This document shows, piece by piece, positions 12,572 through 48,784 of a stretch of 64,000 nucleotides of DNA. Below the pieces are notes generated by a model that had not been told where the DNA came from, did not search any database, and worked only from the letters and a program-made list of their open reading frames with translations. The position numbers and the translations under genes were made by a program. This DNA comes from an uncultured Lentisphaeria bacterium (GTDB taxonomy: Bacteria; Verrucomicrobiota; Lentisphaeria; Victivallales; UBA1829): positions 1 through 64,000 of the forward strand of contig CASDPB010000116.1 of the NCBI GenBank assembly GCA_949282305.1, written 5' to 3'. The number at the start of each line of letters is the position of its first letter. The stretch's first letter is position 1.

Positions 12572-12593
12572 GTTCCGGAAAGGATGACATCTG

Positions 12594-13778
12594 ATGCTTT
12601 ACCTGCTGGCAAATCTGCGCGAGTATTTCGGACCGTTGCGTCTGTTTGAATACGTGACTTTCCGTTCCGGCGGCGCGTTGATCACGTCGATGCTGCTCGT
12701 GATTTTTCTCGGGCCGTGGACCATCCGCCGCCTGAAAAAGTTCTGCGTGCCGAAATCCGCGCGGCTTGAAGGGCTCGTCGCCGAACAGTTCGTGGATCAC
12801 TCCAAGGATAAAACCCCCACCATGGGGGGACTGCTGATCATTTTTTCGATCGTGTTTTCCACAATCTTCTGGGGGGATCTCTCGAACCGGATGGTGCTTG
12901 TCTTCCTGCTGGTGCTGCTGCCTCTCACCGCACTCGGGTTCTACGACGATTACATCAAAGTCAAATATAAGCGGAGCGTTCGGGACGGCGTTTCCGGAAA
13001 GGTGAAACTGCTGGTTCAGTTTCTCGTGAGCTTCGTGGCTCTTTACATTATCTACAAGATGCCGGATACGATGACCACCAAGTTTCTGATCCCGTTTTTC
13101 AAGGATCCGATCTGCCTGAAACCGGCAGGCGACACCATCCAGTTCTGGCTTCCGCCCCAGCTGCTGCCGACTCCTCTGTTCACCTTCCCCGCCTCATGGG
13201 CCCTCCTTGCAGTCGGGCTGATTTTCATTGTGAACATTCTTTTTGTCGCCTTCTTCAGCAATGCGGTAAACCTCACGGACGGCAAAGACGGCCTGGCGGC
13301 GGGCTGCACGGTATTCTGCGTGCTCTCTTTCGCGGCGGTCGCCTACATGCACGGGCATGTGGTATTCGCAAAATATCTTTCCATTCCCTATATTCCGGAA
13401 CTGGGAGAAATCAGCGTATTCGCTTCGGCAATGGCGGGGGCGTGTATCGGCTTTCTGTGGTACAACTGCAAACCGGCGTCCGTGTTCATGGGGGATACGG
13501 GAAGCCTGCCCCTGGGCGGAAGCATCGGACTGATCGCAATCCTGATGGGACAGCAGTTTCTGCTGATCGTAACAGGTTTCGTCTTCCTGATGGAAGGGGT
13601 ATCCGTCATAATCCAGGTCGCCAGCCTCAGGCTGATCGGCAGACGCGTTTTTCTCTGCACTCCGATTCATCACCACTTTGAACAGAAAGGCTGGTCGGAA
13701 ACGCAGATCGTGATCCGTTTCTGGGTCATAGCCGGAATTTGCGCCCTGATCGGCCTTGCAACCTTGAAATTGCGCTGA
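12594..13778 (+). CDS. mraY: Phospho-N-acetylmuramoyl-pentapeptide transferase
   Basis: A 394-residue integral membrane enzyme that makes lipid I by moving phospho-MurNAc-pentapeptide to undecaprenyl phosphate. Signatures: DHSKDKTPTMGGLLII near residue 65, the Asp pair in GFYDDYIKVKYKRS, NAVNLTDGKDGLAAG, FMGDTGSLPLGG and HHHFEQKGWSETQIVIRFW near the end. About ten membrane segments are visible. It is somewhat longer than the usual 320-360 residues because of an extended loop around 150-185. It follows nrdJ by 22 bases, and no mur, fts or mra neighbour is present, so this gene is outside a dcw cluster. Confidence 0.95.
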   Translation: MLYLLANLREYFGPLRLFEYVTFRSGGALITSMLLVIFLGPWTIRRLKKFCVPKSARLEGLVAEQFVDHSKDKTPTMGGLLIIFSIVFSTIFWGDLSNRMVLVFLLVLLPLTALGFYDDYIKVKYKRSVRDGVSGKVKLLVQFLVSFVALYIIYKMPDTMTTKFLIPFFKDPICLKPAGDTIQFWLPPQLLPTPLFTFPASWALLAVGLIFIVNILFVAFFSNAVNLTDGKDGLAAGCTVFCVLSFAAVAYMHGHVVFAKYLSIPYIPELGEISVFASAMAGACIGFLWYNCKPASVFMGDTGSLPLGGSIGLIAILMGQQFLLIVTGFVFLMEGVSVIIQVASLRLIGRRVFLCTPIHHHFEQKGWSETQIVIRFWVIAGICALIGLATLKLR

Positions 13779-13896
13779 AAAATGAAAGAATAATTTTTTT
13801 GAGGCGTTTTTTTGCTTGCATTTTTCCAAAAAAGCGATAGTGTAATCTTCATTATTGGAAAACGGATGTTTTAATCTCTAATTAAGGAACAGTAAG

Positions 13897-14142
13897 ATGG
13901 ACGGAAAGAAAGAAATTTACGCAGACGGTATCGGCCAGATTCACTTTACAGGCGGAATGGTCCGTTATGATTTTGTCACTCTTCAGCCGAAAGAAGAGGG
14001 AATGCCTCCCGAATACCAGTCCAGTGTCCGTATTATCATGCCCACGCAGGGCTTTCTTGCTACATTCAACTCCATGCAGAAGCTGATTGACAAGCTCCTC
14101 GAAGGCGGTTTCATCAAGAAAAACGAAAACGCCCAAAAGTAA
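13897..14142 (+). CDS. Small protein of unknown function (81 aa)
   Basis: Starts MDGKKEIYADGIGQIHFTGG, with a good ribosome-binding site (AAGGAAC, 6 bases upstream) and its own terminator immediately after, so I take it as a real single gene. There is no signal peptide or membrane segment. The pattern, a short beta start followed by VRIIMPTQGFLATFNSMQKLIDKLLEGG, is reminiscent of DUF3467-type small proteins, but I cannot confirm membership. It lies between mraY and a TolC-like gene. Confidence 0.65.
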   Translation: MDGKKEIYADGIGQIHFTGGMVRYDFVTLQPKEEGMPPEYQSSVRIIMPTQGFLATFNSMQKLIDKLLEGGFIKKNENAQK

Positions 14143-14151
14143 GGACAGTGC

Positions 14152-14180
14152 ACCGGACGGAAATCCGCCGTCCGGTTTTT
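14152..14180 (+). terminator. Intrinsic terminator after the 81-aa gene
   Basis: ACCGGACGG (14152-14160) pairs perfectly with CCGTCCGGT (14168-14176) around a 7-base loop, followed by TTTTT. Strong canonical terminator. Confidence 0.9.
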
Positions 14181-14199
14181 CTGTCTTTGCAGAAGGTTC

Positions 14200-14236
14200 A
14201 AAATATGCCGCCGGCGAGTGGTCGGCAGTATATTTT
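14200..14236 (+). promoter_or_regulatory. Long imperfect hairpin upstream of the TolC-like gene
   Basis: AAAATATGCCG (14200-14210) can pair with CGGCAGTATATTTT (14223-14236), leaving a 3-base bulge and a 12-base loop. It sits 40 bases before the start codon, in the promoter/leader region. Function unknown; it could be an operator or an mRNA structure. Confidence 0.3.
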
Positions 14237-14276
14237 GAGTTTTCTGTAACTTATATTTAACAAACGGAGTAACCCT

Positions 14277-15773
14277 ATGCTGAAGACGTATTTTTCAGTG
14301 GTCATAGCACTTGGTTTCGTAACCATACTTACTGTCACCGGCTGCAAAAGTGAAGAAGATTTCCGTATCGAACGCGCCAATAATGCCAGACTGCACTTTG
14401 AAATGGCGCAGTTCAAGGAACTGCCGCAGGATGTTCACCTGACTCTTCCCGAATGTATCCGCCTGGCACTCGAAAACAATCTGGACGCCAAGGTCTACAA
14501 GCTGGAAGAAGCCGTTGCCCGGGAAATGCGGACCGCCGAAGTGCTGGGAATGCTGCCTGAAATCAATATCAACAACAACTTCACCGGACGTTCCAACACG
14601 CCGGCATCCAGCAGTAAAGCATACAAGAGCGGCGGCGCCACTTACGGAGCCAGCACAAGTTCCGACCGCAACATCAATGCCTTCAATATTGATTTTGCGC
14701 TGAGCATCATGGATTTCGGGCTTGCCTTCTTCAATTCACAGCAGGCACATGACCGTTATCTCATGCGTCAGCAGAGATCCGAGCGCGTTTCTCAGAATCT
14801 GACGCTTGATGTTGTCCGTGTCTACTTCCAGGTTGCCGCGGCACAGCGGGCAATGAATATCACACGCGGTCTTCTGAATACCTGCCGTGACCGCACCGAT
14901 TTGATCAAACGGCTCAGCGCCGCCAAGAAGATCACACCGTTCCGCGCATTCGACGAAACCAGCCGCTTCATCGAAATGGAAAGAAAGCTGACCGGTTACA
15001 TTCTCGACTACCAGAACGCCTGCATTGAACTTCGTTCTCTGCTCGGATACTATCCGACTGCCAACATCACGGTGGATGACTCCGTGCTTGCCAAAGTTCC
15101 GGAATTCAAATTCCCGGAAATGGAGGTCATGGAGCAGATCGCCCTGATGAAGAGACCGGAACTCTATGAAATTGACATGCAGAAACACATCAATGTGGTC
15201 GAATGCAGAAAAGTCCTGCTCTCCATGTTCCCGAGCGCAAGACTTTTTGCCGATTACAATAACAACAACAATTCGTATCTCTACAAGGAAAACTGGTGGG
15301 AACTCGGCATTCAGTCCGCATTCAATCTCCTCAAAATTCCGCAGAAAATCGGCGAATACATGAGTTATCAGGCACAGGTGGAGGCGGAACAGGTCCGCTC
15401 CTACGGACAAGCGATCACCGTTATGGCGCAGGTAAGAATTGCCCATGCAGACATCCTCGCCAACAAGGAAATTCTTGATACAAACACCCGGACCTTTGAA
15501 AACTACAATACCCATCTGACAAACTCGCTGAAAAATCAGCAGATCACCGGTGATCTTTCCCGTCTTGAGCTGGATCACATGCGCCTGATGACAGCGGAAA
15601 GCGACATCCAGCGCATCATGGCCCTCGGAAATTACTACGTTTCCTACTACCGTCTGCTAAACGCCATCGGCATTCGGAGCATGACGGACAGTGATGTGAA
15701 AGCTCTGACGGAAGAATTCAATGCCGCTCAGGGAGAGGCGAAAAAGGAAATCGCCAAAGCGGAACAGAAGTAA
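14277..15773 (+). CDS. TolC/OEP-family outer membrane efflux lipoprotein
   Basis: A 498-residue lipoprotein: lipobox TVTGC with Cys at about residue 23. It has the two-fold OEP repeat typical of TolC-like outer membrane channels: LTLPECIRLALENNLDAKVYKLE near residue 55, long helices through 150-250, a second half beginning near MEQIALMKRPELYEID, and QITGDLSRLELDHMRLMTAESDI. Such proteins form trimeric exit ducts for efflux pumps or type I secretion. No inner membrane pump or adaptor gene is adjacent, so the partner is unknown. A terminator follows. Confidence 0.85.
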   Translation: MLKTYFSVVIALGFVTILTVTGCKSEEDFRIERANNARLHFEMAQFKELPQDVHLTLPECIRLALENNLDAKVYKLEEAVAREMRTAEVLGMLPEININNNFTGRSNTPASSSKAYKSGGATYGASTSSDRNINAFNIDFALSIMDFGLAFFNSQQAHDRYLMRQQRSERVSQNLTLDVVRVYFQVAAAQRAMNITRGLLNTCRDRTDLIKRLSAAKKITPFRAFDETSRFIEMERKLTGYILDYQNACIELRSLLGYYPTANITVDDSVLAKVPEFKFPEMEVMEQIALMKRPELYEIDMQKHINVVECRKVLLSMFPSARLFADYNNNNNSYLYKENWWELGIQSAFNLLKIPQKIGEYMSYQAQVEAEQVRSYGQAITVMAQVRIAHADILANKEILDTNTRTFENYNTHLTNSLKNQQITGDLSRLELDHMRLMTAESDIQRIMALGNYYVSYYRLLNAIGIRSMTDSDVKALTEEFNAAQGEAKKEIAKAEQK

Positions 15774-15795
15774 GAAATTGCCGGAATTTATTTTC

Positions 15796-15826
15796 AGCCT
15801 GCGCAGAGCACTGTGCAGGCTTTTTT
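15796..15826 (+). terminator. Intrinsic terminator after the TolC-like gene
   Basis: AGCCTGCGCA (15796-15805) pairs with TGTGCAGGCT (15812-15821, one G-U) around a 6-base loop, followed by a run of six T. Confidence 0.85.
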
Positions 15827-15934
15827 ATTTCAGAAGAAGAACTCCGGGTTCAGACTGCAGCAAAAAGGAGTATAAGACTTGCAATCCTATACTCCGAAAT
15901 ACAGACCGCACTGCTGCGGCAGACAGCCGTGCCG

Positions 15935-16747
15935 TCACAAAAGATTTTCGGCGGCAAATTTGACCGCATTGTCGAAAATGACTTTGCCTTCCCCCCACTC
16001 GGGAAGTCTTCCCTCCAGTTTCTGAGACTGCCAGTCAGGGGCGTTGAACGGGGAAAGGAATGCCTCCGGATGCGGCATCAGACCGAAAATCCGTCCGGTG
16101 GAATCGCAGATTCCGGCAATATCGTTGATCGAGCCGTTCGGATTCTCCGGGAATCCCTTTGCTTTGGAACCGTCCGCAGAAACATAACGCAGCGCAACGA
16201 GATTTTCAGATTCGATACGTGCAATCACGTCCTCGTCCGCGACAAATTTGCCTTCTCCGTGGCGAACAGGCAGCCGGAAAGTTTTGATTCCTTTCGTAAA
16301 GACGCAGGGAGACTTTTCATTGGCGCCGAGTGTCACCCAGTCATCGCGGAAGACACCGGAATCGTTATGCGTCAGCGCCGCCTGCTGCTCGAAATATCTG
16401 CCGTCCAGAGCGGGGGCAAGACCAAGCCGGGTCAAGGTCTGAAACCCGTTGCAGATGCCGATCACGAGCTTTCCCGCTTTGACGAACGCCTTGATGTCTT
16501 CGCTGAGCCGGAATTTCAAACGGTTTGCAAAGACCGTCCCGGAACCGAGATGATCCCCGAAAGCAAATCCGCCGATAAACGCGAGAATGTGAAACTCATC
16601 CAGTTTTCTTTTCCCGTTGAGCAGATCGTTCAGATGAACCTGTTCAGCAGTCGCGCCTGCGGATTCAAATGCGGCGGCGGTCTCCTTTTCGCAGTTGAGC
16701 CCTACGCCGGTAATGATTAAAGCCTTAACATCAGAATACTTGCCCAT
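15935..16747 (-). CDS. purQ: Phosphoribosylformylglycinamidine synthase, glutaminase subunit
   Basis: A 270-residue class I glutamine amidotransferase of de novo purine synthesis, which passes ammonia to PurL for FGAM formation. The nucleophile is Cys99 in VIGICNGFQTL, and the His/Glu pair is in GLMPHPEAFLSP. IGGFAFGDHLGSG (58-70) is the oxyanion strand. The ATG at 16747 is chosen (GGAG 9 bases upstream); an in-frame start at 16816 would add a non-homologous hydrophobic stretch. No purL or purS gene is adjacent. Confidence 0.93.
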   Translation of the reverse strand: MGKYSDVKALIITGVGLNCEKETAAAFESAGATAEQVHLNDLLNGKRKLDEFHILAFIGGFAFGDHLGSGTVFANRLKFRLSEDIKAFVKAGKLVIGICNGFQTLTRLGLAPALDGRYFEQQAALTHNDSGVFRDDWVTLGANEKSPCVFTKGIKTFRLPVRHGEGKFVADEDVIARIESENLVALRYVSADGSKAKGFPENPNGSINDIAGICDSTGRIFGLMPHPEAFLSPFNAPDWQSQKLEGRLPEWGEGKVIFDNAVKFAAENLL

Positions 16748-16869
16748 AAAAATCTCCAGTTTGAATAGACGTAAGAATTTAACCTGAAAACGTCTAAAAA
16801 TCAAACCTGAAAACAAAAAAAGTCTTCTTTCCGTTTTCCATTGAGCCTGAAACGGCTGAAAAACACCAG

Positions 16870-19065
16870 CTATTTCTTTTCCCTGATGACTTTTACTTCA
16901 AGAGGCGCCAAAGAAATCTCCTTGCCGTTTCCGGAAACAACGCCTTTTTCTCTCGTGGCATTGACCAGAATTTCAAGTTTTTCTCCCTTCAAATTCCAGG
17001 AAGCGCCGAAAATCTCCTTTTCTCCGGTGGAAATCTCCGCAAAATCGCCATTGATGAAAAATTCTTCCAGACTGCGTATCTCCTTCACCAGTTTCAACAT
17101 TTCATCGCGCAATGCGGGATGCTTGTTCAGGTCGAATCTGGAATCCGTGTAAGTATAGAAGAAGATCCCCCGCACCCCTGCGGCAAGAGCCTGATAAGTC
17201 ATATTCCGGATTTCCTCCGGAGTCGGAGTCCGGAAGAAAGCATCTCCTTCATATCCAAAGGCCTGCGGAACGGCAAAAGGCAGATGTGAAGTTCCTTCCA
17301 GCATTTTCACCAGCTCACGCATATTGTAATAAACCATGGAGATCGGCGCTTTGGGCAGCGGATAGGGATCATGACCAACCAGATCGGCACATCGGAGATA
17401 TCCGTCCGTAAAACCGCTCCTTGTCATAATGACAACGGTGGAAAAGGAATCAAAATGTTTTTTCCGCAAATCCCTTCTCTTCTTCATTAAAACGGCTTTC
17501 GCCTCTCCCCGTGAATCCGGCTCATCCGAAACAGCATATCCGATCACAGCCGGATAATTTTTTTTCGGCGGCGGTCCTCCAAGCCGCACTTTTACGCCAC
17601 GCCGGGAAGCATAATTGATAAAAGTCTCAAAATCCGGATCTCCTTCGGGACGCCGCTGACTGAATAAAAGAATATCCTTCCCCGCCTTGCTTACAAAATC
17701 CACTGCAGAAAGCCGCGCCTCGTCAGAAGTCTTCCAGGTAATGTGATAAAAACCGAGAGGAAACACTTTCCTTCCGTCCAGCCGCAGAATATTGTCCATC
17801 CCCACACAGTTCAAAGGATTCCGCTTAAAAACAACAAGAGGAGCCTTGATCTCAAAAAGCTGTTTTCCGGAGTTCCGGCAACGCAGAACAGCCCTCAGAC
17901 AGTATTCTCCGGCATTCAGAAAACTCAGATCACAGTGATACAGATTTTCTCTGATCTTCTTCATTTTCACTTCCTGATCTCCGGCATACAGAACAACCTG
18001 ATATTTCTCTACATCACTGAAAACAGACGCGGTGGAAAATTCCACTGGAAACGTTCCGGCAATCAAAGGATAAACTTCATCACGCCACGGAAGAAATGTC
18101 ACGGGTACCTCAACCTCTTTGAACGATTTCAGGTGAATCTCATGATTCTGCATCCTCACCGTCAATGTAAAAAGCAGAGGTTTTGCTGAAGACACTTCAT
18201 AAGGAACGGAAAAGTCATACGTTCCGTTTCTCCCGGAATCTATTGTCTGCCCGCCCAGGATTTTTCCATCCTGCGACACAGTCCACGTGAAGGTGGCTTT
18301 TCTGTCACTGCCCGGCAGTGACAGTGTTGATTTCAAAACGTTTTTCCCATACGATCTTCCATATTCAAAGGTCTTCAGTTCCACTCCCATACGGTTCAAT
18401 TTGGAGGCGGCAAGGATATTTTCGATATACGCCCGGAAAGCAGCCTGTCTGCCGTTCCCGAAATCGAAATACGTCGTTGTAAAAATAAGCCCTTTCCCGA
18501 ATTTCCGGTAAAGCATCACGGGCATGCCATCCCCGCATTCTGCCATGCTGACCCATCCTTCCGGCTGAGTATGGTGCAGCCATAATGGCAGGTTGGCAAA
18601 AGTTTCCTCCAGCCGGTTCGGGAAAAAATTCACACTCAACGCGGGATCCCAGACACGCCGGGTAATCCGTTGTATGTCTTTGTCGGTGCAGCAGCGCCCA
18701 TAACGTACTTGAAAATCTTTTCCGAAATGGTGAATGACACGATGAAGTGCGCGCGGCGAGCAGGCAGTGACCAGCAGAAGTGTGCCGCCATTTTTCAAGT
18801 ATTCTTTCATCTCCGGAGCAACTGCTTCCCAGTCACAGGGCATCTTATCCCCGCTTCCTGTTCCATTGATGATGAGCTCAAAGTCTGAAAAGCGTTTTGC
18901 GCCGGCAGCGAGGTCCTTGCACAGAATACGCTCCACTGTCCAGTCTTTATTCGCTGCGATGATCTTATATTCCCGGTCATAGGTGCCTGTCACAATTGCA
19001 ATCCGATCCGCCGGCAGGACAAAAGGCAGAAGCAGCAAAACTGCAAGACTCAAAAAGTGTTTCAT
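16870..19065 (-). CDS. Secreted protein with amidotransferase-like N-terminus and glycosidase-like C-terminus
   Basis: A 731-residue exported protein (signal peptide 1-19, hydrophobic LAVLLLLPFVLPA). Residues about 20-230 look like a ThuA/class I GATase-like sandwich (MKEYLKNGGTLLLVTACSPR, LIFTTTYFDFGNGRQ). A beta-sandwich middle (about 240-420) follows, then a putative TIM barrel (about 425-680) with FPLGFYHITWKTSDE, AVIGYAVSDEPDS (an acidic pair where retaining hydrolases carry a catalytic acid) and AAGVRGIFFYTYTDSRFD. The end has a short beta domain. I cannot name a CAZy family. It is third in a cassette with a GntR/LacI-type regulator and a pseudopilin (17 bases after the pseudopilin gene), so a polysaccharide substrate is likely. 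Confidence 0.6.
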   Translation of the reverse strand: MKHFLSLAVLLLLPFVLPADRIAIVTGTYDREYKIIAANKDWTVERILCKDLAAGAKRFSDFELIINGTGSGDKMPCDWEAVAPEMKEYLKNGGTLLLVTACSPRALHRVIHHFGKDFQVRYGRCCTDKDIQRITRRVWDPALSVNFFPNRLEETFANLPLWLHHTQPEGWVSMAECGDGMPVMLYRKFGKGLIFTTTYFDFGNGRQAAFRAYIENILAASKLNRMGVELKTFEYGRSYGKNVLKSTLSLPGSDRKATFTWTVSQDGKILGGQTIDSGRNGTYDFSVPYEVSSAKPLLFTLTVRMQNHEIHLKSFKEVEVPVTFLPWRDEVYPLIAGTFPVEFSTASVFSDVEKYQVVLYAGDQEVKMKKIRENLYHCDLSFLNAGEYCLRAVLRCRNSGKQLFEIKAPLVVFKRNPLNCVGMDNILRLDGRKVFPLGFYHITWKTSDEARLSAVDFVSKAGKDILLFSQRRPEGDPDFETFINYASRRGVKVRLGGPPPKKNYPAVIGYAVSDEPDSRGEAKAVLMKKRRDLRKKHFDSFSTVVIMTRSGFTDGYLRCADLVGHDPYPLPKAPISMVYYNMRELVKMLEGTSHLPFAVPQAFGYEGDAFFRTPTPEEIRNMTYQALAAGVRGIFFYTYTDSRFDLNKHPALRDEMLKLVKEIRSLEEFFINGDFAEISTGEKEIFGASWNLKGEKLEILVNATREKGVVSGNGKEISLAPLEVKVIREKK

Positions 19066-39071: not shown

Positions 39072-40426
39072 TGATATTCCGATCCTCCGCAGGACTGTTC
39101 CGCTCTTGCCGCAGGATTCTGTGCGCGGGACTGTCTGCCGCGCTTTTCTGCGCATTTGCGGAGGAGGAGCACCCGCGCGAGATGATCCGCATTGATGTGA
39201 CCTCCCTCCCAGCCGCAGCGGAAAGCATCTCCGGAATCGGCAATGCGATCGCGCCGGGCTTCGCGGATTCCGTGGTCATGCTCACCGTCATTTTCAGCAT
39301 GACTCCTCCCGCGCTGCTGATGGATGTCACGAAACCTTTCTCCATTCTCTTCTATGAAAACCGGAACGCACCCGCCGTATGTTTTGTTGCATACGCGCGC
39401 CCCAATGTCCGGATTTTTGAAAAATCAGACCTGAAAACGGGTTCTCTGAAAATGGAGGCGGAACCCTTTCAGAAAGATCATATCCTCATCAAAACACTGA
39501 ATCTTCCGGGGATTCATCCTTCGCTGTTTCTCCCCGCCGAAACCTCCGCCGCCGTATTGCAAATCGAGGCGAATCCCCGACTTCTGAAACAGCAGTTCAA
39601 TTTAAAGTCCCTGGCTTCAGAAAAGGCAAAAAAAATCCCGGCGGCAATGGATGACTTCATTGAGTCCTTTCAGCGGTTGAACCTGACCGTCTGTATGCCT
39701 TCACAGAACCGGCTCATGCTGGAACTGGACGGGCGGCTCTCCCCCGGCAGCAGCCTCGGAAAATACCTGGCGGCTCCTCCTCCCCTCCCGTCTGTTTCCT
39801 CTTTTGAAAACGCGGAGGAGCTTTTCATTCTGAACATTCCCGCAGATCGTCCTTTCCGGGAATATCTCCTGCGGATTCTGCCCGGGTTTTCAACCGGTCT
39901 GGAACGGGAAGAACATTTGCGCAGAAGTCTTGTCAACGCCTCCAGCGGAATGATTGCCGTCAGCGTCTCTTTCCGCAACTCCCCGGACGCGACTGCCGGA
40001 GAAAGGCGTCTGGTGAAAGCGGTGTTCGGACTTGAGCGCAGTTCCATTCCGGATGTGAAAAAATCTCTGGACGCTTTTCCCGAAACCCCGTTCGGCGGTC
40101 TCAGGCTGATCGCCAGGGAAAAGACGCCGGAAGGGGAAAATCTTCTGTTCAGCCGTGTAGAAGATCAGTCCATTGCCTTTTTTTACTGCGGAATGGTTCA
40201 GGCGGAATTGCAGACACTCATGAAAGAAAGGAAAATCATGCTGAAACGGAATGCTCCCTTTGTGCTTCATGACCTGAAATCGGGAAGCACACCCGTCACG
40301 CTGGAATGCCAGGGGGAACACGTGCTGCTGAAAATTGACGCAGACAGGGAATTCTTCCGCCAGTTTCCGCCGCTGATCGACAGACCGATTCAACAGCTGA
40401 TGATGAAACGCGGGAATACGTTATAG
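39071..40426 (+). CDS. Exported protein of unknown function (451 aa)
   Basis: Begins MIFRSSAGLFRSCRRILCAG and has a signal-like hydrophobic stretch (ILCAGLSAALFCAFA) with likely cleavage near residue 30. The rest is a mixed alpha/beta sequence with no motif I recognise. It shows alternating patterns such as FSILFYENRNAPAVCFVAYA and EELFILNIPADRPFREYLL, suggesting two repeats of one domain. Its start overlaps the SGNH hydrolase stop by one base (TAATG), so the two are probably co-translated and act together outside the inner membrane. The last 6 bases overlap the convergent pseudopilin gene. Confidence 0.65.
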   Translation: MIFRSSAGLFRSCRRILCAGLSAALFCAFAEEEHPREMIRIDVTSLPAAAESISGIGNAIAPGFADSVVMLTVIFSMTPPALLMDVTKPFSILFYENRNAPAVCFVAYARPNVRIFEKSDLKTGSLKMEAEPFQKDHILIKTLNLPGIHPSLFLPAETSAAVLQIEANPRLLKQQFNLKSLASEKAKKIPAAMDDFIESFQRLNLTVCMPSQNRLMLELDGRLSPGSSLGKYLAAPPPLPSVSSFENAEELFILNIPADRPFREYLLRILPGFSTGLEREEHLRRSLVNASSGMIAVSVSFRNSPDATAGERRLVKAVFGLERSSIPDVKKSLDAFPETPFGGLRLIAREKTPEGENLLFSRVEDQSIAFFYCGMVQAELQTLMKERKIMLKRNAPFVLHDLKSGSTPVTLECQGEHVLLKIDADREFFRQFPPLIDRPIQQLMMKRGNTL

Positions 40427-41158
40427 TTTCAAGGAATCATCGCGGAATTCAATTTTGCAGGTCAGCGGATTGACAATGAGAGTCTTTGCCATTGTATATC
40501 TGTCAGAACCTTCGGTAAACACATTCGTCGCCTGAATGTTGTCTTTACTGACAGGAACACCTTCCATAAGCCGGAACCGGAGAGCCTTGGACAGTTCAAT
40601 TCCAGCAAGCTGCCCGTTCGGCTTGAAAATAATTGCCCGGACAACGTCTTTTTTGACACTGTCATCCTCCGTGGAAATCGATTTTATTTTTCCCAGAGGA
40701 ACTTCTGCCACAACATATTCTGTCGGCAAATCTTCTTCCGATTCAGAAGAAGAACCGGATGCCGGGGTAATCAGACAAAAATCTTCCTCCTCCTTGTTAA
40801 TCACGATTCCTTTGTCCATCAGCTTCCAGTCCTCGCCATCTATCCATGAATCAAAAACCCACTTGTCATCTTCATTTTTATAGATGATGCACGGACGGTA
40901 ACATCTGAAATAAAAATCTGTTTTCCCGGTATTTTCCAAATCGTCTCCCGTCGGGAACACCAGCGCGACGTAACAGTTATTCGTAACGGCGTAAGAACGG
41001 GTGGCTTTGATCTTGGCGGCAAGTTCACGGGTGGTGGATGTCATGGCTCCGCCTTTCATCATGGCGGTGAATGCGGGCGTCGCAATTCCCAGAATGACAG
41101 CGGCAATCGCCACGACGACCAGGAGTTCCACTAAGGTGTAACGATGAATTTTTCTCAT
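40421..41158 (-). CDS. GspH/FimT-like type II pseudopilin
   Basis: A 245-residue pseudopilin with signal MRKIHRYTLVELLVVVAIAA (cleavage before Y7, Glu at +5) and a hydrophobic helix ending in ATPAFTAMMKG. The segment TSTTRELAAKIKATRSYAVTNNCYVALVF is the minor-pseudopilin GspH/FimT pattern, different from the other three pseudopilins in this window. It holds a Ser/Glu-rich stretch (SGSSSESEEDLPTEY). It may be a minor component of a type II secretion or type IV pilus machine. Its promoter overlaps a 20-bp palindrome. The gene follows the ABC importer genes on the same strand. Confidence 0.88.
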   Translation of the reverse strand: MRKIHRYTLVELLVVVAIAAVILGIATPAFTAMMKGGAMTSTTRELAAKIKATRSYAVTNNCYVALVFPTGDDLENTGKTDFYFRCYRPCIIYKNEDDKWVFDSWIDGEDWKLMDKGIVINKEEEDFCLITPASGSSSESEEDLPTEYVVAEVPLGKIKSISTEDDSVKKDVVRAIIFKPNGQLAGIELSKALRFRLMEGVPVSKDNIQATNVFTEGSDRYTMAKTLIVNPLTCKIEFRDDSLKL

Positions 41159-41421: not shown

Positions 41422-43746
41422 TCATTTCTCCGTCGGGACAACAATCCCTTTGATGATGATGTTCTGGCAGAAGATGAAGACCAGCAGAGTCGGCACCGCC
41501 GCAATGATCAGAGCGGCAAATCCCACCGCCTGGCTGGAACGGATCTGAAGCTGATACAGATGCACCATCATCGTCCACATGGACTTATCCTGGCACAGCA
41601 GGAAAGCCATCATGAAGTTGCCGTATGCCAGCGTAAACGTATTCAGCGCCAGCACCGAAAGAATCGGCGTGGAAAGCCCCATCGCAATATGCCAGAAAAC
41701 CGTCCATTCGCTTGCGCCGTCAATCGCCGCAGACTCGAACAGCTCCTTCGGCAGACTGTCGAAAAATCCTTTCAGCAGGAAGATCATATAGCCGTTCGCC
41801 ATCGTCGGCAGGATCAGCGCCCAGAAAGTATTCAGCAGATTCAGGTCTTTAATCAGGAGGAACTGCGGAATGCCGAGCACCATCGGCGGAAATGCCATCG
41901 GAAGCATCAGGAACAGCAGAATCTTATATGCCGGAGCCATCTTGTAGCGGGACAGCGCATAGGCGCACAGCGGATTCACGATCAGCGCCGCAAGCACTGC
42001 AAGCGCACAGTAGATAATCGTATTTTTCGCCGCATTGCCGTTGGTGATGATCGTATCCACCACCATCACATAGTTCCGCTTCAGGTATTCCTTCACCAGA
42101 TCCCATTTATGATCGAGAACGGAGAACCACTCGTATTCCTTGGAAGGCGGTGAGATCCTGTCCCAGCCCGTATAAACCGTTCCCCATGCCCGGTTGAGCG
42201 CGGCAATGTCCTTATACTTGTTCTGCAGGAACTTGCACCACAGCGGCTGCATTTTCCCGACATTCGCCACAACGCGGATCTTGCCGTTTTCCGGATTCGT
42301 CACGAATTCCCGGTAATGATCCTTCACGCTCATGGTAATGTCGGGGGAAACGGGGTATCTGGAATAAAACGGAATTTCAAGTTTGTTCCGGATGCCGCTC
42401 TTGTAATCAAAGGACATTTTGTCATAATCCACCGTTTTATCCACTTTCCGGTATTTGTTTTCGATGAAGTTTCTGTAATCCGCAATCGCGGTGCGGACAA
42501 GGCCGATTTCCTCGGGTCCCATCGTATTGACGAATTCAGTCCAGTCCTTCGCCAGCGCGATGTTCTCCTGCGGATACTCCTCCGGGAGAGGAACGGCGTC
42601 CATTGACTTATACCCCATGTCATAGACATCATTCAGGCGCGCAATCGTGCCGTATTTCCTTTTCAGCCAGTCGCGGTATTCGCCGGCAAGGGTTTCAACC
42701 CTGATATATTCCGGGGGAAGAACCAGCGAAATGAACTCGTTCCAGTCGGTTTTGATCTGCCCGCCCGCAGGCTCCCGAAGCGGAAGCCTCACCTCGTCGA
42801 ATGTCTTGGCGTTGTATTCATGCAGGGCGTTGACCTCTTTGATGTCCTTGTATTTCTCTCTCAGAAATTCTGTCCAGAGAGGCGCGGCGGCGGGATCCAG
42901 GCGCAGGAAAGAACAGTTCACATCCTCACGGACGTACTTGCTCCAGAGTTTCGCAAACTTCTCATTTCCCTTCGGATAAGTTCTCGGAAGCGGAATGTCC
43001 TGCCATGAGTTGTAATTTGTCCCGAGTTTCCTGTTAAGTTCGGGAAGTTCGCGCGCCACGTTTTTCCGCAGACTTTCCACAAAAAAGCCGTCAAGATCCA
43101 CCCAGTAGGTGTGCAGACCGCTGATCTGAGTATTCTTGAATTCAAGGATCTCTTTGAGAATGCCCTTGCTGTAGTCCGTTGAAATTTTGCGCGTATGGAA
43201 CAGTTCCACGGGAAGCGCCACGGTTTCCCATGAAGTATAATCGGTTCCGCAGGCTTCGTTCAGTTTTTTGATTCCCTCCTCCCCTTCGCCATATTTCTTG
43301 GCGAGCCATGTGCGGTACTCCCTGAGCACCAGGGGATAAACACCTGTTTCATTCGCCATGCCGATTCCGCGCCAGTAATGCGGTTTCCGCTCCTTCATCT
43401 CCCCCAGGAACGCCTTGTAATCGTCAAATCTCACCCGCGACGGATTTTCCGGTTTCTTCACATTGTTCACGGCTCCGACGGGTTCCCGGAACGCATTGAA
43501 AAACAGGATGTTCTGCGCATTGAACTTTGTCGCCAGATGTTTCTGGAACAGAAGTTCATCGTTGTAAATGAATTCGGGAAGCAGCGAAAACTTGGAAAAA
43601 TCCACATCGCTTTTGAAGGATCCCGAAACCATCAGGAGAAGCGGATAAACCATCGTGACCGCTCCGAGCAGGAGCAGCACATGAATCGAAATATTCAGAA
43701 TTCTGATCTTCAGACTCTTTTTCTCAACTTTACCTATGATAGCCAT
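41422..43746 (-). CDS. MalG-type ABC sugar permease with ~500-residue repeat insertion in the first periplasmic loop
   Basis: A 774-residue inner membrane protein. TM1 is at about 19-41 (NISIHVLLLLGAVTMVYPLL), as in MalG, and the permease resumes at about 571 with five further segments to 765. The coupling EAA loop is ELFESAAIDGASEWTVFWHI (668-687). Between TM1 and TM2 (about 45-560, periplasmic) lie six degenerate repeats with the pattern W-x2-FL-x2-KY-x2-I-x2-LN-x3-GT-x-Y-x-SW-x2-I-x-LP, at about 140-178, 226-254, 290-322, 353-388, 422-459 and 502-533. Ordinary MalG proteins are near 280 residues. The repeat resembles a segment of GH42-type beta-galactosidases. The gene starts 1 base after the SBP-MalF gene stop. 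No ATPase gene is adjacent. Confidence 0.9.
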   Translation of the reverse strand: MAIIGKVEKKSLKIRILNISIHVLLLLGAVTMVYPLLLMVSGSFKSDVDFSKFSLLPEFIYNDELLFQKHLATKFNAQNILFFNAFREPVGAVNNVKKPENPSRVRFDDYKAFLGEMKERKPHYWRGIGMANETGVYPLVLREYRTWLAKKYGEGEEGIKKLNEACGTDYTSWETVALPVELFHTRKISTDYSKGILKEILEFKNTQISGLHTYWVDLDGFFVESLRKNVARELPELNRKLGTNYNSWQDIPLPRTYPKGNEKFAKLWSKYVREDVNCSFLRLDPAAAPLWTEFLREKYKDIKEVNALHEYNAKTFDEVRLPLREPAGGQIKTDWNEFISLVLPPEYIRVETLAGEYRDWLKRKYGTIARLNDVYDMGYKSMDAVPLPEEYPQENIALAKDWTEFVNTMGPEEIGLVRTAIADYRNFIENKYRKVDKTVDYDKMSFDYKSGIRNKLEIPFYSRYPVSPDITMSVKDHYREFVTNPENGKIRVVANVGKMQPLWCKFLQNKYKDIAALNRAWGTVYTGWDRISPPSKEYEWFSVLDHKWDLVKEYLKRNYVMVVDTIITNGNAAKNTIIYCALAVLAALIVNPLCAYALSRYKMAPAYKILLFLMLPMAFPPMVLGIPQFLLIKDLNLLNTFWALILPTMANGYMIFLLKGFFDSLPKELFESAAIDGASEWTVFWHIAMGLSTPILSVLALNTFTLAYGNFMMAFLLCQDKSMWTMMVHLYQLQIRSSQAVGFAALIIAAVPTLLVFIFCQNIIIKGIVVPTEK

Positions 43747-43747
43747 G

Positions 43748-46327
43748 TTATTTCCCCGTTGTCTTGAATTCCATTTTGGAAAGTCTCTTGAGATTGTAAA
43801 TGGTGAACATCAGCGTCATCATGCCCAGCACCCACGCCATCGAAATGGCGCTCCCAAACTGAAGATTCGTATAGGCTTCCTTGAAGATATGCAGCTCGGC
43901 AACCTCCGTGTTCGCACGTCCGAACGTCATGATAAGGATCATTCCTCCGGACTGCGCGGATGCGATGAACGCACCGACAAAGTTGATGATGATCAGTGCC
44001 TTCAGCGTCGGAAACGTCACATGCCAGATCTTCTGGAAGAAATTGGCGCCGTCGATTTCCGCCGCCTCATAGGTTTCATCCGGCACACCTTTCAGCGCCG
44101 CCAGATAGATCAGGCAGCCCGGCCCCGCTCCCGCCCAGATGGTCGGAATCACGCACGCCAGCATCGCCCACTTCGCGTCATTCAGCCAGTCCTGCGGCGT
44201 AAACTCCAATCCGAACAGCCCCGCAAGATTGCTTAACGTCTGATTCAGAATACCGGAGGAGCCCGCCTGATAAAAGAGTTTCCACATGAAGATCACGACC
44301 AGACCGCTCATGACTGCCGGAAGGTAATACAGAGTTCTGTAAACGATTTTTCCGTGGGAAACCTCCTGGAGCAGAATCGCAAGAACAATCGGCGCAAGAA
44401 AACCCAGCGTCAAGGTGAACATCATGTAACGGAACGTGTTCCAGATCGCGGACCACCATTCGTCGCTGAACAGGACTCCGGCAAGGTTGTCAAACCCGAC
44501 CCACCGGCTGTCGCCGACAACGCGGTAATCCTGGAAAAACAGCTGGGAACCCGTTATCATGGGATAATAAGTCCACAGCAGAATGCTGACCAGCGCGGGA
44601 AGCATAATCAGATAACCCAGCCAGTTCCGTTTGAAGTCCCAGCCCCGCTTCTTGCCCGAATAAGAATCCTTCGGAGAAAATACCTTCCAGATGTTATAAA
44701 TCACAAAGCAGAAAACACATACGATGATAATGGCGACAATGACCGCCACCGTCGTGCGTTTCTGCTGCTCCTGCGGCTCAATGTAGCCGATCATCCGGGC
44801 GTTGGTTCTGTTTTCAGCTTTTTTCAGGATCTCCTGAAGCATGTCAATACGCTTTTCCTTCGCCTCGGGGGAATCGCCTTCCGGCAGTTTCCCGTCGCGG
44901 AAAAGCTGCATTGCCTCGTCGATCGGCTGCGTCAGATAAATGTATACCATCTGACAGTTGCGGCCGTAGGGTTCCGGCTTCCCGTTTTCAAGCGCCTGGT
45001 TGAACGCCTGTTCCCATGACGGCGGAAAATACTTCAGGTATTCCGTGTAACCGAACTCCCGCAGATAAGTCGGGCTGAGAGAACGCCCCTGCCCGAGATT
45101 GACCATGGTTTCCGCATAGATTTTACGCGCTCTCCTGGAGTTCATGAAACTGATATATTTCCATGCCGCGTCGCGGATCTTCTCGGCGGGGACAAATTTC
45201 CCCTCCGAATTGTTTCTGCCGGCAATGCCCGCAAAAATGCCATTCAAAGTGGCATTGATCTCCGTCGCGCCCTTTCCGGACGGTCCCGCGGGAAACGGAG
45301 CGATTCCGACAAGGGCGGGATCCACCTCTCCGCCCATCCGGTCGTCACCGAGATACTGCGAATACATCCCCAGTTTTCCCGCCTGCTGCGCCAGCTTGAC
45401 TGAACGTTCATCCGAGTTCAAGGTGGAATATCCATGCTGAACCGTCCCGTCCGAATCCTGCCAGCGTTCCGTCGCAAGGCGCATATAAAAGTCCAGGGCA
45501 ATCGCGGCTTCCCGCGTGCCGAATGAGGCCTTCCACTCTCCTGTCTCCTTGTCCTGTGTCACCGCGTCCGCGCCGGCACTCCAGAGATAGGACATGAAAT
45601 CCCAGGCAGAGGATGCGCCGCTCGCCATGCTGATGCCATATTTGTCACGGGCGGGATCGGCGATTCTGCGGGCGTATTCAATGAGCTCATCCCAGTTCTT
45701 CGGCGGCTTTTCGGGGTCAAGTCCCGCATCCTGAAAGATGTCCTTCCGCCAGAACAGCGCACGCACCAGAATCTTATTTCCCATTGCCCAGACATGCTTT
45801 CCGGCGGCGAGTCCCCCGACGGCAGGACCTTCACGGAACACGATCGGGCGGATCGCAGGAGGCAGTGTGCTCAGAAAATTGTCAATCCCTTTGAACTCCG
45901 GATCGTTTTCAATATATTTGTCGAGCGGCCAGAGAAAATTCTGCTGGATGTAGGTGTCCGACATACGGAAATTGACGTTGATCACATCAGGAGCCGCACC
46001 GCCGGCAATCGCCAGCATCAGACGGGATTCCGCACCGATGTTCTGGATTTCGATTCCGCTGAACGGCGAAAGCTCAATCTCCGGATGCAGCCTGCGGAAC
46101 TCACGAAGAATTTCCAGCTGCACTTTAACTTTGGTGTCCGTCGATTTCGGATCGGGAAGCTGCATCACCCTCAAGGGAATTTTCAGCACCTCGCCCTGAG
46201 CCTGAGGTTTCGCTTCCGATGTTTCCTTCTTTTTATCGTCGGCATTAAGGTCCGGGATGAACAGCAGGGACAGCAGTACAGCAACCCCCGCCGACAGCAA
46301 TGTTGTAAAAAAGAGTCCGCGTTTCAT
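43748..46327 (-). CDS. Solute-binding protein fused to MalF-type ABC permease
   Basis: An 859-residue fusion. An N-terminal membrane anchor or signal (7-25) is followed by a family 1 extracellular solute-binding domain (about 48-500; FRRLHPEIELSPFSGIEIQ, GGAAPDVINVNF, GKHVWAMGNKILVRALFWRK, PPKNWDELIEYARRIAD, LNGIFAGIAGRNN). A transmembrane helix (526-548) leads to a MalF-like permease (565-859) with the EAA loop ETYEAAEIDGANFFQKIWHV (751-770). Binding protein and permease are normally separate polypeptides, so this importer carries its receptor tethered. It pairs with the MalG-type gene next in the operon; a shared MsmX/MalK-type ATPase must be encoded elsewhere. The probable cargo is an oligosaccharide released by the neighbouring GH123-like enzyme. 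Confidence 0.92.
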   Translation of the reverse strand: MKRGLFFTTLLSAGVAVLLSLLFIPDLNADDKKKETSEAKPQAQGEVLKIPLRVMQLPDPKSTDTKVKVQLEILREFRRLHPEIELSPFSGIEIQNIGAESRLMLAIAGGAAPDVINVNFRMSDTYIQQNFLWPLDKYIENDPEFKGIDNFLSTLPPAIRPIVFREGPAVGGLAAGKHVWAMGNKILVRALFWRKDIFQDAGLDPEKPPKNWDELIEYARRIADPARDKYGISMASGASSAWDFMSYLWSAGADAVTQDKETGEWKASFGTREAAIALDFYMRLATERWQDSDGTVQHGYSTLNSDERSVKLAQQAGKLGMYSQYLGDDRMGGEVDPALVGIAPFPAGPSGKGATEINATLNGIFAGIAGRNNSEGKFVPAEKIRDAAWKYISFMNSRRARKIYAETMVNLGQGRSLSPTYLREFGYTEYLKYFPPSWEQAFNQALENGKPEPYGRNCQMVYIYLTQPIDEAMQLFRDGKLPEGDSPEAKEKRIDMLQEILKKAENRTNARMIGYIEPQEQQKRTTVAVIVAIIIVCVFCFVIYNIWKVFSPKDSYSGKKRGWDFKRNWLGYLIMLPALVSILLWTYYPMITGSQLFFQDYRVVGDSRWVGFDNLAGVLFSDEWWSAIWNTFRYMMFTLTLGFLAPIVLAILLQEVSHGKIVYRTLYYLPAVMSGLVVIFMWKLFYQAGSSGILNQTLSNLAGLFGLEFTPQDWLNDAKWAMLACVIPTIWAGAGPGCLIYLAALKGVPDETYEAAEIDGANFFQKIWHVTFPTLKALIIINFVGAFIASAQSGGMILIMTFGRANTEVAELHIFKEAYTNLQFGSAISMAWVLGMMTLMFTIYNLKRLSKMEFKTTGK

Positions 46328-46653: not shown

Positions 46654-48303
46654 TCAACCGCAGATACGGCGGTTGATACGGTCGCGGAGGTTCAGGAGCC
46701 ATTCCGCTTCGCGCGGATAGGAGTTGATTGTAATCGGATACTCCACACCCTCCTGAATCATTTTGAGCGTTTCCCCGCGACCGATCTTTTCCTCCAGCAG
46801 ACGCAAGGCGCGCAGATCCTGCAATCCCTCTGCAAATACTTCGTAATGAAGGGAATCCACAGGCTCATCCTTTCCAGGGTAGACCATGAAGGCTCCGCCG
46901 CCGCAGAAGGCGCGCCCGGCGTCCACCACCTGATAGGGGTCAATGTGCCAGTTCAGAGAGTGCTGCGTAAACCAGAAATTGTATCCCCAGTTCAGGAACC
47001 CGTCGAGATTGTACAGATAAAGCAAAACTCCAAGCACGCGGTTTCGCACGGAAGGCATTCCGAACTGACGGTTCGGCACTCTATCCTCCCAGTTTCCGCA
47101 GTAGTAGACCCAGCGCTGTTCCAAAGTCTCGTTCAGGAAGTCCTTCAGATGCGTTGTTGTGGGAATCGGCCGCCTGATCAGTCCTCTGCGGAAGAATTCC
47201 ACGCTGGAGAGGGCGTCAATCACGGGATAGTTTCCGATCAGCCCGCCCAGAAGCCCTGAGGCATATTCATACGAGTCCGCAACATCAGGTGTCGGCTCAT
47301 CCGAGACATGGAAAAAGGTATTGTCCTCGTTGAGTCCTTTTTTCTTGAAAAATGGAATCAGGACTGCCGTCAGCTGCGTCAGGAATTCCCTGTATGCGGG
47401 AGAATCCGCCGCAACATGCCAGCCGAAACGTTTCCGTTCGACGCCGTTCTCCTTTACGATGATCTTCGGAGTTGCCTTCGCCCCCCATTGCGTAAAGGCA
47501 TGCGACATTTCAAAATATCTGAACCCTGCCCGTTTCGCGGTGTCAATCCAGCGTTCCAGAAGCGAAAAATCAAACCGGTATTTTCCGTCTTCGCATGTGA
47601 TGTCCAGAAGCTGTGCCGTGGGACGTTCATAGCCGACAGCGGTATCCAGCGGAACGCTCCAAAGCGGTGTGAGGATGACATTGTTCCCATGCTGAATCAT
47701 GTTCACAAAGTATTTTTCCAGGAGCTCCCAGTGTTTTTCACTCCAGCAGGGCACATTGTAGTATGCCTGAATGCAGTCCGCATAAAACCAGTTGACGGAC
47801 AGCAGCTTCTGTTTCGGAAGACTGAATGGCAGTATCCTTACCTTGATGGAAGTCTTATAGTTCAATTCCGGCTGAGGCCAGAGCGGTGTTTCCGGCATTG
47901 AAATGGAAAAACGGATCTCATATTCGCCCGGTTTCATGTTTTCCGGAATGCGGACTGTACACCATACCGCATGCCAGTTTTCGCGAGTCAGACGGATGCG
48001 GTTTTTTTCCAGAGGAAGAAGCGGATCGGGAAAAAGTCCTGCTTCGTGCGTGATGACGAACGGATCCTGCGGCATTGCCGGCATCAGGCAGGGCACCAGT
48101 CCGACTTCCCGCATGGACATCAGTTCCGCAATTTCAGATTCCACATGAAATTCTATGATATAATTTCCGTCGCTTCTGCAGGCAAGCTGAAAAGCAATGG
48201 TTTCTCCTCCGGCGCCGCTGACCTGATCTATTTTTTCCGCAGATAAGTCCGGCCGGCAGAAGACTTTCTCCAGCGAATTCACGAACCGTGTCGTAAAGAA
48301 CAT
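46654..48303 (-). CDS. GH123/DUF4091-family glycoside hydrolase
   Basis: A 549-residue protein without a signal peptide. An N-terminal beta-sandwich (about 15-165; WHAVWCTVRIPENMKPGEYE) precedes a TIM barrel (about 170-500) with LLSVNWFYADCIQAYY, HVSDEPTPDVADSYEYA (the Asp-Glu pair that is the catalytic position of GH123 beta-N-acetylgalactosaminidases), LNWGYNFWFTQHSLN, and a DUF4091-like end SLHYEVFAEGLQDLRALRLLE. Substrate-assisted hydrolysis of N-acetyl-hexosaminides is the family's known chemistry; the true substrate here is not known. The ATG at 48303 has GGAG 9 bases upstream; a longer in-frame start gives a basic stretch that is not homologous. It is the first gene of the ABC importer region. 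Confidence 0.8.
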   Translation of the reverse strand: MFFTTRFVNSLEKVFCRPDLSAEKIDQVSGAGGETIAFQLACRSDGNYIIEFHVESEIAELMSMREVGLVPCLMPAMPQDPFVITHEAGLFPDPLLPLEKNRIRLTRENWHAVWCTVRIPENMKPGEYEIRFSISMPETPLWPQPELNYKTSIKVRILPFSLPKQKLLSVNWFYADCIQAYYNVPCWSEKHWELLEKYFVNMIQHGNNVILTPLWSVPLDTAVGYERPTAQLLDITCEDGKYRFDFSLLERWIDTAKRAGFRYFEMSHAFTQWGAKATPKIIVKENGVERKRFGWHVAADSPAYREFLTQLTAVLIPFFKKKGLNEDNTFFHVSDEPTPDVADSYEYASGLLGGLIGNYPVIDALSSVEFFRRGLIRRPIPTTTHLKDFLNETLEQRWVYYCGNWEDRVPNRQFGMPSVRNRVLGVLLYLYNLDGFLNWGYNFWFTQHSLNWHIDPYQVVDAGRAFCGGGAFMVYPGKDEPVDSLHYEVFAEGLQDLRALRLLEEKIGRGETLKMIQEGVEYPITINSYPREAEWLLNLRDRINRRICG

Positions 48304-48784
48304 AGGATTTCTCCGTCTTTGGTGTTTCCGTTTCCTGCGCTTTGATATATTATAATATGAAAAAAGAATCAAAACAAGAGAATATTTCAGTCATAAAACG
48401 GGAAATTATAACATTTTTGATGCAAAAAACAATAATAATGATGTTTTTGCTTCCGCTCAAAGTCAGAAGGAAGAGAAACCGGAAGGAAATCAGGATCGGG
48501 AAGGTGGGAAAAATCGGAAGAAACAAAAACAATATCAGCATTCATTCATGGAAATCGGATTTCATCGCGACAGAAAGAAGGGGCTCCCTTGTTTTTAAGG
48601 AAAATGACAATTCTCTTTTTGCAAAGTAGAATGAAAGCAACCGCTATTTATTCGTAAAAAGACGGGAAAAGGGCTGGATTTGAAGAACAGGAGAAAGTAT
48701 ATTGTCAGGCAGCCCGTAAACAGATGTTTTTCTCCGCATAACAGACAAATTGCCGAAATTTGAAAATTCAAAGAGAAAAGTGCA
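48304..48784. other. AT-rich intergenic stretch upstream of the GH123-like gene
   Basis: It holds the GH123 promoter and otherwise no convincing gene. A possible 95-codon frame on the plus strand (48342-48629) has very basic, low-complexity content and overlaps the promoter, so it is not called. A 14-bp inverted repeat, TTTGAA-AA-TTCAAA (48759-48772), lies just before the small membrane protein gene. Confidence 0.5.
48349..48377 (-). promoter_or_regulatory. Promoter for the GH123-like gene
   Basis: Minus strand TTGTTT (48377-48372), 17-base spacer, TATAAT (48354-48349), 45 bases before the start codon. The -10 box is perfect. Confidence 0.6.

Follow-up and report, generated by a model that had tools for sequence, protein, structure and literature searches.

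The window, a 64,000-nucleotide stretch of DNA, encodes on its minus strand a MalG-type ABC permease of 774 amino acids (P0001; 41422..43746), delineated by its open reading frame, Pfam matches, and an AlphaFold2 (AF2) model, that carries an array of GH42-like repeats. Pfam assigns residues 607-766 of P0001 to BPD_transp_1 (3e-15; 56.9 bits, above the cut-off of 26.4) and finds Glyco_hydro_42 (PF02449) in three separate stretches (1.8e-20), the best of which, residues 351-445, corresponds to positions 148-251 of the 376-position profile. The first transmembrane helix (TM1; residues 12-44, 43615..43713, minus strand) is seen in the hydropathy profile and as an AF2 helix at 12-44, which leads into the periplasm ahead of the array, and TM2 was placed at residues ~571-600 by hydropathy and the AF2 model. 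Therefore, about 510 residues lie in between, in agreement with the insertion of about 500 residues described in an initial annotation of this DNA, and this loop alone exceeds the total length of the plain MalG proteins encoded by these genomes (276-314 amino acids). The permease core (TM2-TM6; residues 547-768, 41443..42108, minus strand), delimited by the PF00528 match at 607-766 and by Foldseek, includes an EAA-type coupling region at ~671-696 and adopts the MalG fold, with 4xtc_N (AlgM2) and 2r6g_G (MalG) matched at a Foldseek probability of 1.00 and a TMt of 0.63. With its N-terminus and EAA-type region (671-696) on the cytoplasmic side and the expected helix parity, P0001 is predicted with high confidence to hold the array on the periplasmic side.

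The gene directly upstream (43748..46327, minus strand), whose stop codon and the MalG start are one base apart (junction AAATAACATGG), encodes an 859-amino-acid protein in which a solute-binding protein (SBP) is fused to a MalF-type permease (SBP_bac_1 at 102-400, 1.8e-23; BPD_transp_1 at 648-840, 5.8e-11). Its SBP domain (residues ~45-510, 44798..46195, minus strand) was assigned from SBP_bac_1 and has sugar-binding SBPs as its PDB relatives; an extra transmembrane helix (residues 525-543, 44699..44755, minus strand; hydropathy 3.18) joins it to a MalF-type core (residues ~560-859, 43751..44650, minus strand) in which no long P2 loop separates TM3 from TM4, as judged from hydropathy and the match to AlgM1. 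The permease core places the system among the CUT1 ABC importers, and the partner gene places it among importers with a tethered SBP. The MalF part is closest to AlgM1 (1.5e-26) of the AlgM1-AlgM2 alginate importer of Sphingomonas A1 (PDB 4tqu, 4xtc), and AlgM2 and E. coli MalG (2r6g), which share the same CUT1 permease architecture, are the closest folds to the MalG core. In both AlgM1-AlgM2 and MalF-MalG, however, the SBP is a separate protein, whereas it is fused to MalF in the window, and the MalG and AlgM2 chains (280-296 residues) lack a large first periplasmic loop where the window MalG has one of ~510 residues.

Beyond this gene pair, the genes vary between loci. We found no gene for a MalK-type ATPase at the locus, its own genome has 36 ABC_tran matches, and OB_MalK neighbors occur next to a few relatives. 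Downstream of the permease lies a prepilin-like gene (40421..41158, minus strand; weak N_methyl/GspH Pfam matches), which is kept directly downstream in L035-L039 and may be an operon member in close relatives only. The nearest enzyme in the window is a GH123-family protein (46654..48372, minus strand; PF13320, 6e-92) encoded upstream of the SBP-MalF gene; we considered it as a component of the system and rejected it, as it is not conserved beside relatives. Some transporter loci, mainly in Cloacimonadota, are followed by genes for a GH38 alpha-mannosidase and for GH20, GH20-GH130, or GH130 proteins (L114, at 11622-17082; L052, L058, L060, and L102), which hints at N-glycan-type substrates and a possible N-glycan utilization cluster in those loci. 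The GH20-GH130 fusion ORF is unusual in itself.

Repeat units and their origin

The inserted loop is repetitive in sequence. When P0001 was compared with itself, the best off-diagonal ungapped BLOSUM score was 76, whereas 200 shuffles reached 52 at most, and the ten best diagonals summed to 566, against a shuffle maximum of 320 (200 shuffles); the self-matches fall at offsets of 67, 134, 212, 280, and 355, which gives a period of ~70 residues. A unit HMM trained on L049-L114 only, and thus outside the close relatives of the window permease, matched P0001 at residues 141-206, 222-285, 290-351, 356-408, 423-484, and 503-535. Five of these copies scored 33-56 bits and the copy at 423-484 scored 8.5 bits, compared to 5.2 bits for the best of 500 shuffles. 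All six places where the initial annotation had listed copies were therefore recovered, and the self-similarity that it had put forward for checking lies far above that of the shuffles. Its repeat of about 35 residues, on the other hand, covers only part of the unit, since the actual period is ~66-80 residues (family consensus LRAFRKFLKAKYGGDIAALNRAYGTDYASWDEIPLPERVPEGGTALLEDWEEFVREWLNPLWLRLDPV), with units mostly 65-80 residues apart among relatives.

Structure prediction adds a seventh unit to the six. The AF2 model of P0001 (63 homologues) has a mean pLDDT of 90 and a pTM of 0.83, with most of the insertion at pLDDT 90-97, and the insertion modeled alone (21 homologues) reaches a pLDDT of 92.5 and a pTM of 0.88. 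Both models contain seven units with a common succession of two helices, a short turn, a third helix, and a short strand. The additional unit, U0 (residues 63-138, 43333..43560; AF2 bounds 63-128; all units are on the minus strand), is degenerate, with helices at 63-74, 79-86, and 104-120 and a strand at 126-128, and in L065, L094, and L108 the corresponding position is scored as a unit. It is followed by U1 (residues 139-217, 43096..43332; AF2 bounds 139-215), U2 (residues 218-284, 42895..43095; AF2 bounds 218-283), and U3 (residues 285-352, 42691..42894; AF2 bounds 285-350), with leave-out HMM scores of 36.7, 46.3, and 46.9 bits, respectively. U4 (residues 353-417, 42496..42690; AF2 bounds 353-416; 56.3 bits) and U5 (residues 418-495, 42262..42495; AF2 bounds 418-493) are both missing in relatives with five units; U5 is degenerate (8.5 bits) and keeps the same order of secondary structure in the AF2 model. 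The last unit, U6 (residues 496-546, 42109..42261; AF2 bounds 496-545; 33.5 bits), has the clearest motif and no terminal strand, and its helices (496-511, 514-521, 535-545, and 547-568) lead into TM2. Positions of the insertion that are conserved in the family, such as N163, N238, N306, N518, F113, F203, W268, D334, and L361, nearly all belong to the repeat core.

The resemblance to GH42 noted earlier extends well beyond this permease, as 59 of the 63 aligned family permeases match PF02449. Searched against the PDB as a single sequence, the insertion gave only chance-level matches to sigma factors, and a unit profile was therefore needed; it retrieved GH42 beta-galactosidases first (5dfa at 6.5e-10; 1kwg residues 158-216), followed by GH50, GH167, GH35, and GH14 enzymes, which also carry a segment homologous to the window repeat. 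The segment does occur in glycosidases, as had been asked of it, but once per enzyme: the window's own genome encodes ten PF02449 proteins, each with a single unit, and the array is found in this permease only. The two contexts differ further in that GH42 enzymes hold their single copy inside a TIM barrel and follow the GT motif with five additional residues (FWSQR, within AFWSQRY of 1KWG), whereas the permease has a tandem array with neither the barrel nor these residues. The FWSQR stretch of 1KWG includes a sugar-contacting tryptophan, and E141 and E312 are its catalytic glutamates; the unit profile aligns solely to residues 158-216 of 1KWG and does not cover these glutamates. A complete catalytic TIM barrel was not found in P0001, where PF02449 coverage at best spans profile positions 148-251 of 376 and the insertion has no whole-fold match, and the trimerization domain PF08532, present in four of the PF02449 enzymes of the same genome, is absent. 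Judged by these alignments, the repeats can be shown to be homologous to a helical segment of GH42-type glycosidases and not to their catalytic barrel, and the window permease is not a GH42 enzyme. Hence, PF02449 matches in these phyla call for caution, as they can be transporters rather than beta-galactosidases. The array represents a new repeat fold, built from an enzyme segment that was duplicated in tandem.

Relatives and the tethered binding protein

A scan of bacterial and archaeal genomes recovered at least 427 relatives of the window permease, and the best 80 of these were examined for lineage. They come from Lentisphaerota, Kiritimatiellota, Verrucomicrobiota, Planctomycetota, Armatimonadota, Cloacimonadota, and Delongbacteria, with a homologue of the five-unit class in Victivallis vadensis DSM 14823 (L077, Lentisphaerota), so that the architecture, rather than being confined to Lentisphaerota permeases, spans at least six phyla among the relatives. 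In the phylum to which the window belongs, the insertion profile was matched at 1e-20 by 104 of the 388 genomes sampled, a few of the entries being partial. Relatives have 5, 7, or 8 units, and their insertions fall into length classes of about 360-380, 400-420, 470-520, and 581-587 residues; in all 29 of 29 short relatives, the alignment gap lies at P0001 residues ~366-510, which corresponds to U4 and U5. In a tree built from the membrane part only of inserted and plain permeases, the inserted ones separate from the plain ones on long branches (support 92), the seven-unit class forms one group of 32 (support 98), a nested five-unit group is found in Cloacimonadota, and eight-unit members are found in Lentisphaerota. 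Together, the unit-number classes on the tree and the gaps at U4 and U5 therefore indicate gain and loss of whole units.

The partner gene accompanies the array almost without exception. Eleven of the 80 loci are ended by a contig edge, and among the 69 that could be tested, an SBP-MalF fusion lies directly upstream of the arrayed MalG in 65 (66 of 69 if TAG is read as sense in L041, where the fusion would also be directly upstream). Two others, L088 and L104, look like frameshifted SBP-MalF fusions, and L074, which has no fusion, is the one exception. Six further permeases of 492-702 amino acids (L217-L222, from G059, G128, G107, G073, G114, and G075) have shorter or strongly diverged arrays and do not adjoin the fused SBP-MalF gene, which lies elsewhere in the genome; these MalG proteins still have a long insertion with one to four recognizable units. 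The lengths of SBP-MalF and MalG are not correlated (rho -0.23, p 0.07). Across 65 gene pairs, however, insertion distances track SBP distances, with a partial r of 0.44 after removal of the MalF and TMD distances (permutation maximum 0.14), compared to 0.14 for MalF and 0.16 for TMD. With rate-matched columns, the partial r was 0.35 for the SBP versus 0.18 and 0.17 for MalF and TMD, and with equal column numbers, the excess shrank to a modest one (0.32 versus 0.24 and 0.20), the SBP being largest in 87% of draws. This co-evolution lends weak support to a link between the arm and the SBP, and it could also arise if both domains adapted to the same glycan.

Possible roles of the arm

The earlier suggestion that the array holds the tethered binding domain gains from the near-constant SBP-MalF partnership and the weak co-evolution, while the holding itself is something that we infer. 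We favor, with a confidence that falls just short of even, the reading that the array is a non-catalytic periplasmic scaffold that would guide the MalF-tethered SBP, or hold the SBP's glycan, in an oligosaccharide importer. According to this proposal, the locus encodes a CUT1-type (maltose/alginate-like) ABC oligosaccharide importer with its SBP tethered to MalF, and the first periplasmic loop of MalG forms a rigid, non-catalytic superhelix of seven repeats from a GH42-like helical segment, anchored at both ends by TM1 and TM2. The repeats, their homology to the GH42 segment, and the pairing with SBP-MalF are established by the data, and the fold and the periplasmic side of the array are predicted with high confidence. 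As an extracytoplasmic scaffold, this arm may dock, corral, or orient the tethered SBP above the translocation path, and it probably also lines the route of long glycan chains. Its role would be comparable to the help that the MalF P2 domain, which contacts maltose-binding protein in E. coli, gives to that protein. Both P2 and the arm are large periplasmic domains in a loop of a maltose-type permease, but P2 lies between TM3 and TM4 of MalF and is unrelated in sequence, whereas the arm lies between TM1 and TM2 of MalG. Against a scaffold role, most CUT1 importers function without such an arm.

A serious if rather unlikely rival is that the array is a multivalent, lectin-like arm that binds glycans and captures long chains or feeds them to the tethered SBP. 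The descent of the units from part of GH42-, GH50-, GH35-, GH14-, and GH167-type glycosidases would suit such an arm, as would the N-glycan-type enzymes (GH20-GH130 fusions and GH38 alpha-mannosidases) that adjoin some copies, the joint divergence of the insertion and the SBP, and a sister system whose unrelated insertion resembles a carbohydrate-binding beta-sandwich by eye. However, the repeats lack the five-residue insertion of GH42 (FWSQR in 1KWG), and we found no conserved aromatic pattern outside the repeat core, to which almost all conserved positions belong. The fast evolution of the insertion is as compatible with a ligand-facing domain as with a scaffold: pairwise identity within unit-number classes is 25-37% for the units and 67-71% for the membrane part. 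We consider it quite unlikely that the arm instead crosses part of the periplasm to an envelope partner (an outer-membrane porin, peptidoglycan, or a pseudopilus), the number of units determining how long it is. Although length does vary by whole units (5, 7, or 8) and the prepilin-like gene lies directly downstream in close relatives, neighbors vary and no envelope gene is conserved with the pair across phyla. Moreover, the variable units sit mid-chain in an arm anchored at both ends, so extra units would widen the loop rather than lengthen a free tip.

The two remaining explanations fare poorly against the fold prediction. That the insertion is a decayed GH42 glycosidase domain within a permease is suggested by the Pfam label Glyco_hydro_42, but the insertion consists of tandem copies of one segment without a TIM barrel, a Foldseek search with the insertion alone gave no PDB match at E<0.001 and no whole-fold match, and in place of decay, a single architecture is retained over several phyla. 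The sensible Foldseek matches are local, over ~100 residues, to enzymes of the GH50, GH14, GH35, and GH167 kinds and to a GH42-like transferase. We rejected this explanation, which we regard as very improbable, on the Foldseek result and the fold prediction. A disordered, functionless loop of random sequence would be in line with conservation below that of the TMD; it is extremely improbable given the predicted regular units, an insertion pLDDT mostly of 90-97, and repeat-core residues retained across phyla, and is refuted as far as prediction can do so.

Tethering of a binding domain to a membrane subunit is known from GlnPQ and OpuA, which belong to different transporter families, and the abstracts on these importers (PMC8025302, PMC11065425) describe no repeat arm on the partner permease. 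Likewise, we found nothing in open-access text that describes permeases with GH42 domains, MalG insertions, or such Lentisphaerota ABC systems, and judged from that literature, no previous description of the repeat architecture of the MalG arm was found. In databases, arrayed permeases go under no other label than "permease" or "GH42". Although Type I ABC importers belong to textbook knowledge, several poorly studied phyla of polysaccharide degraders harbor a lineage whose periplasmic architecture is different, and the arm makes the guidance of tethered SBPs and the import of long glycans testable.

The window's own genome also encodes a second fused SBP-MalF protein of 924 amino acids followed by a 584-amino-acid MalG (G000:C36:193725-198247; L199, 526-5048). 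This MalG has an insertion of ~310 residues in the same TM1-TM2 loop, unrelated in sequence to the array and without a Pfam match, that by eye looks like a carbohydrate-binding type of beta-sandwich. Further members of this class, from elsewhere in the phylum, are L211, L212, and L213; genomes G078, G070, and G104 carry it, and a G070 system without the fusion has a plain 281-amino-acid MalG (L214). SBP tethering and enlargement of the MalG loop thus coincide in two unrelated ways, which suggests that the first periplasmic MalG loop is a general slot for accessory domains. A bolder version, which we find doubtful, is that sugar importers with an SBP fused to MalF always fill this loop with a large accessory domain, chiefly the GH42-derived superhelix, and that superhelix and tethered SBP would form a permanent extracytoplasmic cage in which long glycans are captured and threaded. 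Such substrate delivery is not known from ABC importers.

In-frame TAG codons in a related genome

One relative, L041 (CASERY010000104.1, genome G001, from the same family as the window), has three in-frame TAGs in SBP-MalF and three in MalG, with four more in two other ORFs of the locus. Elsewhere in G001, 3 of 37 ABC_tran domains have one in-frame TAG each and no other stop, and an RF2-like gene has one in-frame TAG in addition to a single TGA, as its frameshift site would lead one to expect. RF1 was matched at full score in G000 and G008, just below the cut-off in G002, and not in G001, a MAG that is 78% complete; among the 46 tRNA matches in this same 78% complete MAG, none was a CUA tRNA. 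From its reading frames, TAG looks like a sense codon throughout G001. The text of a 2021 screen (PMC8629427) does not mention Lentisphaerota, and reassignment of TAG in a bacterium would, if true, be notable.
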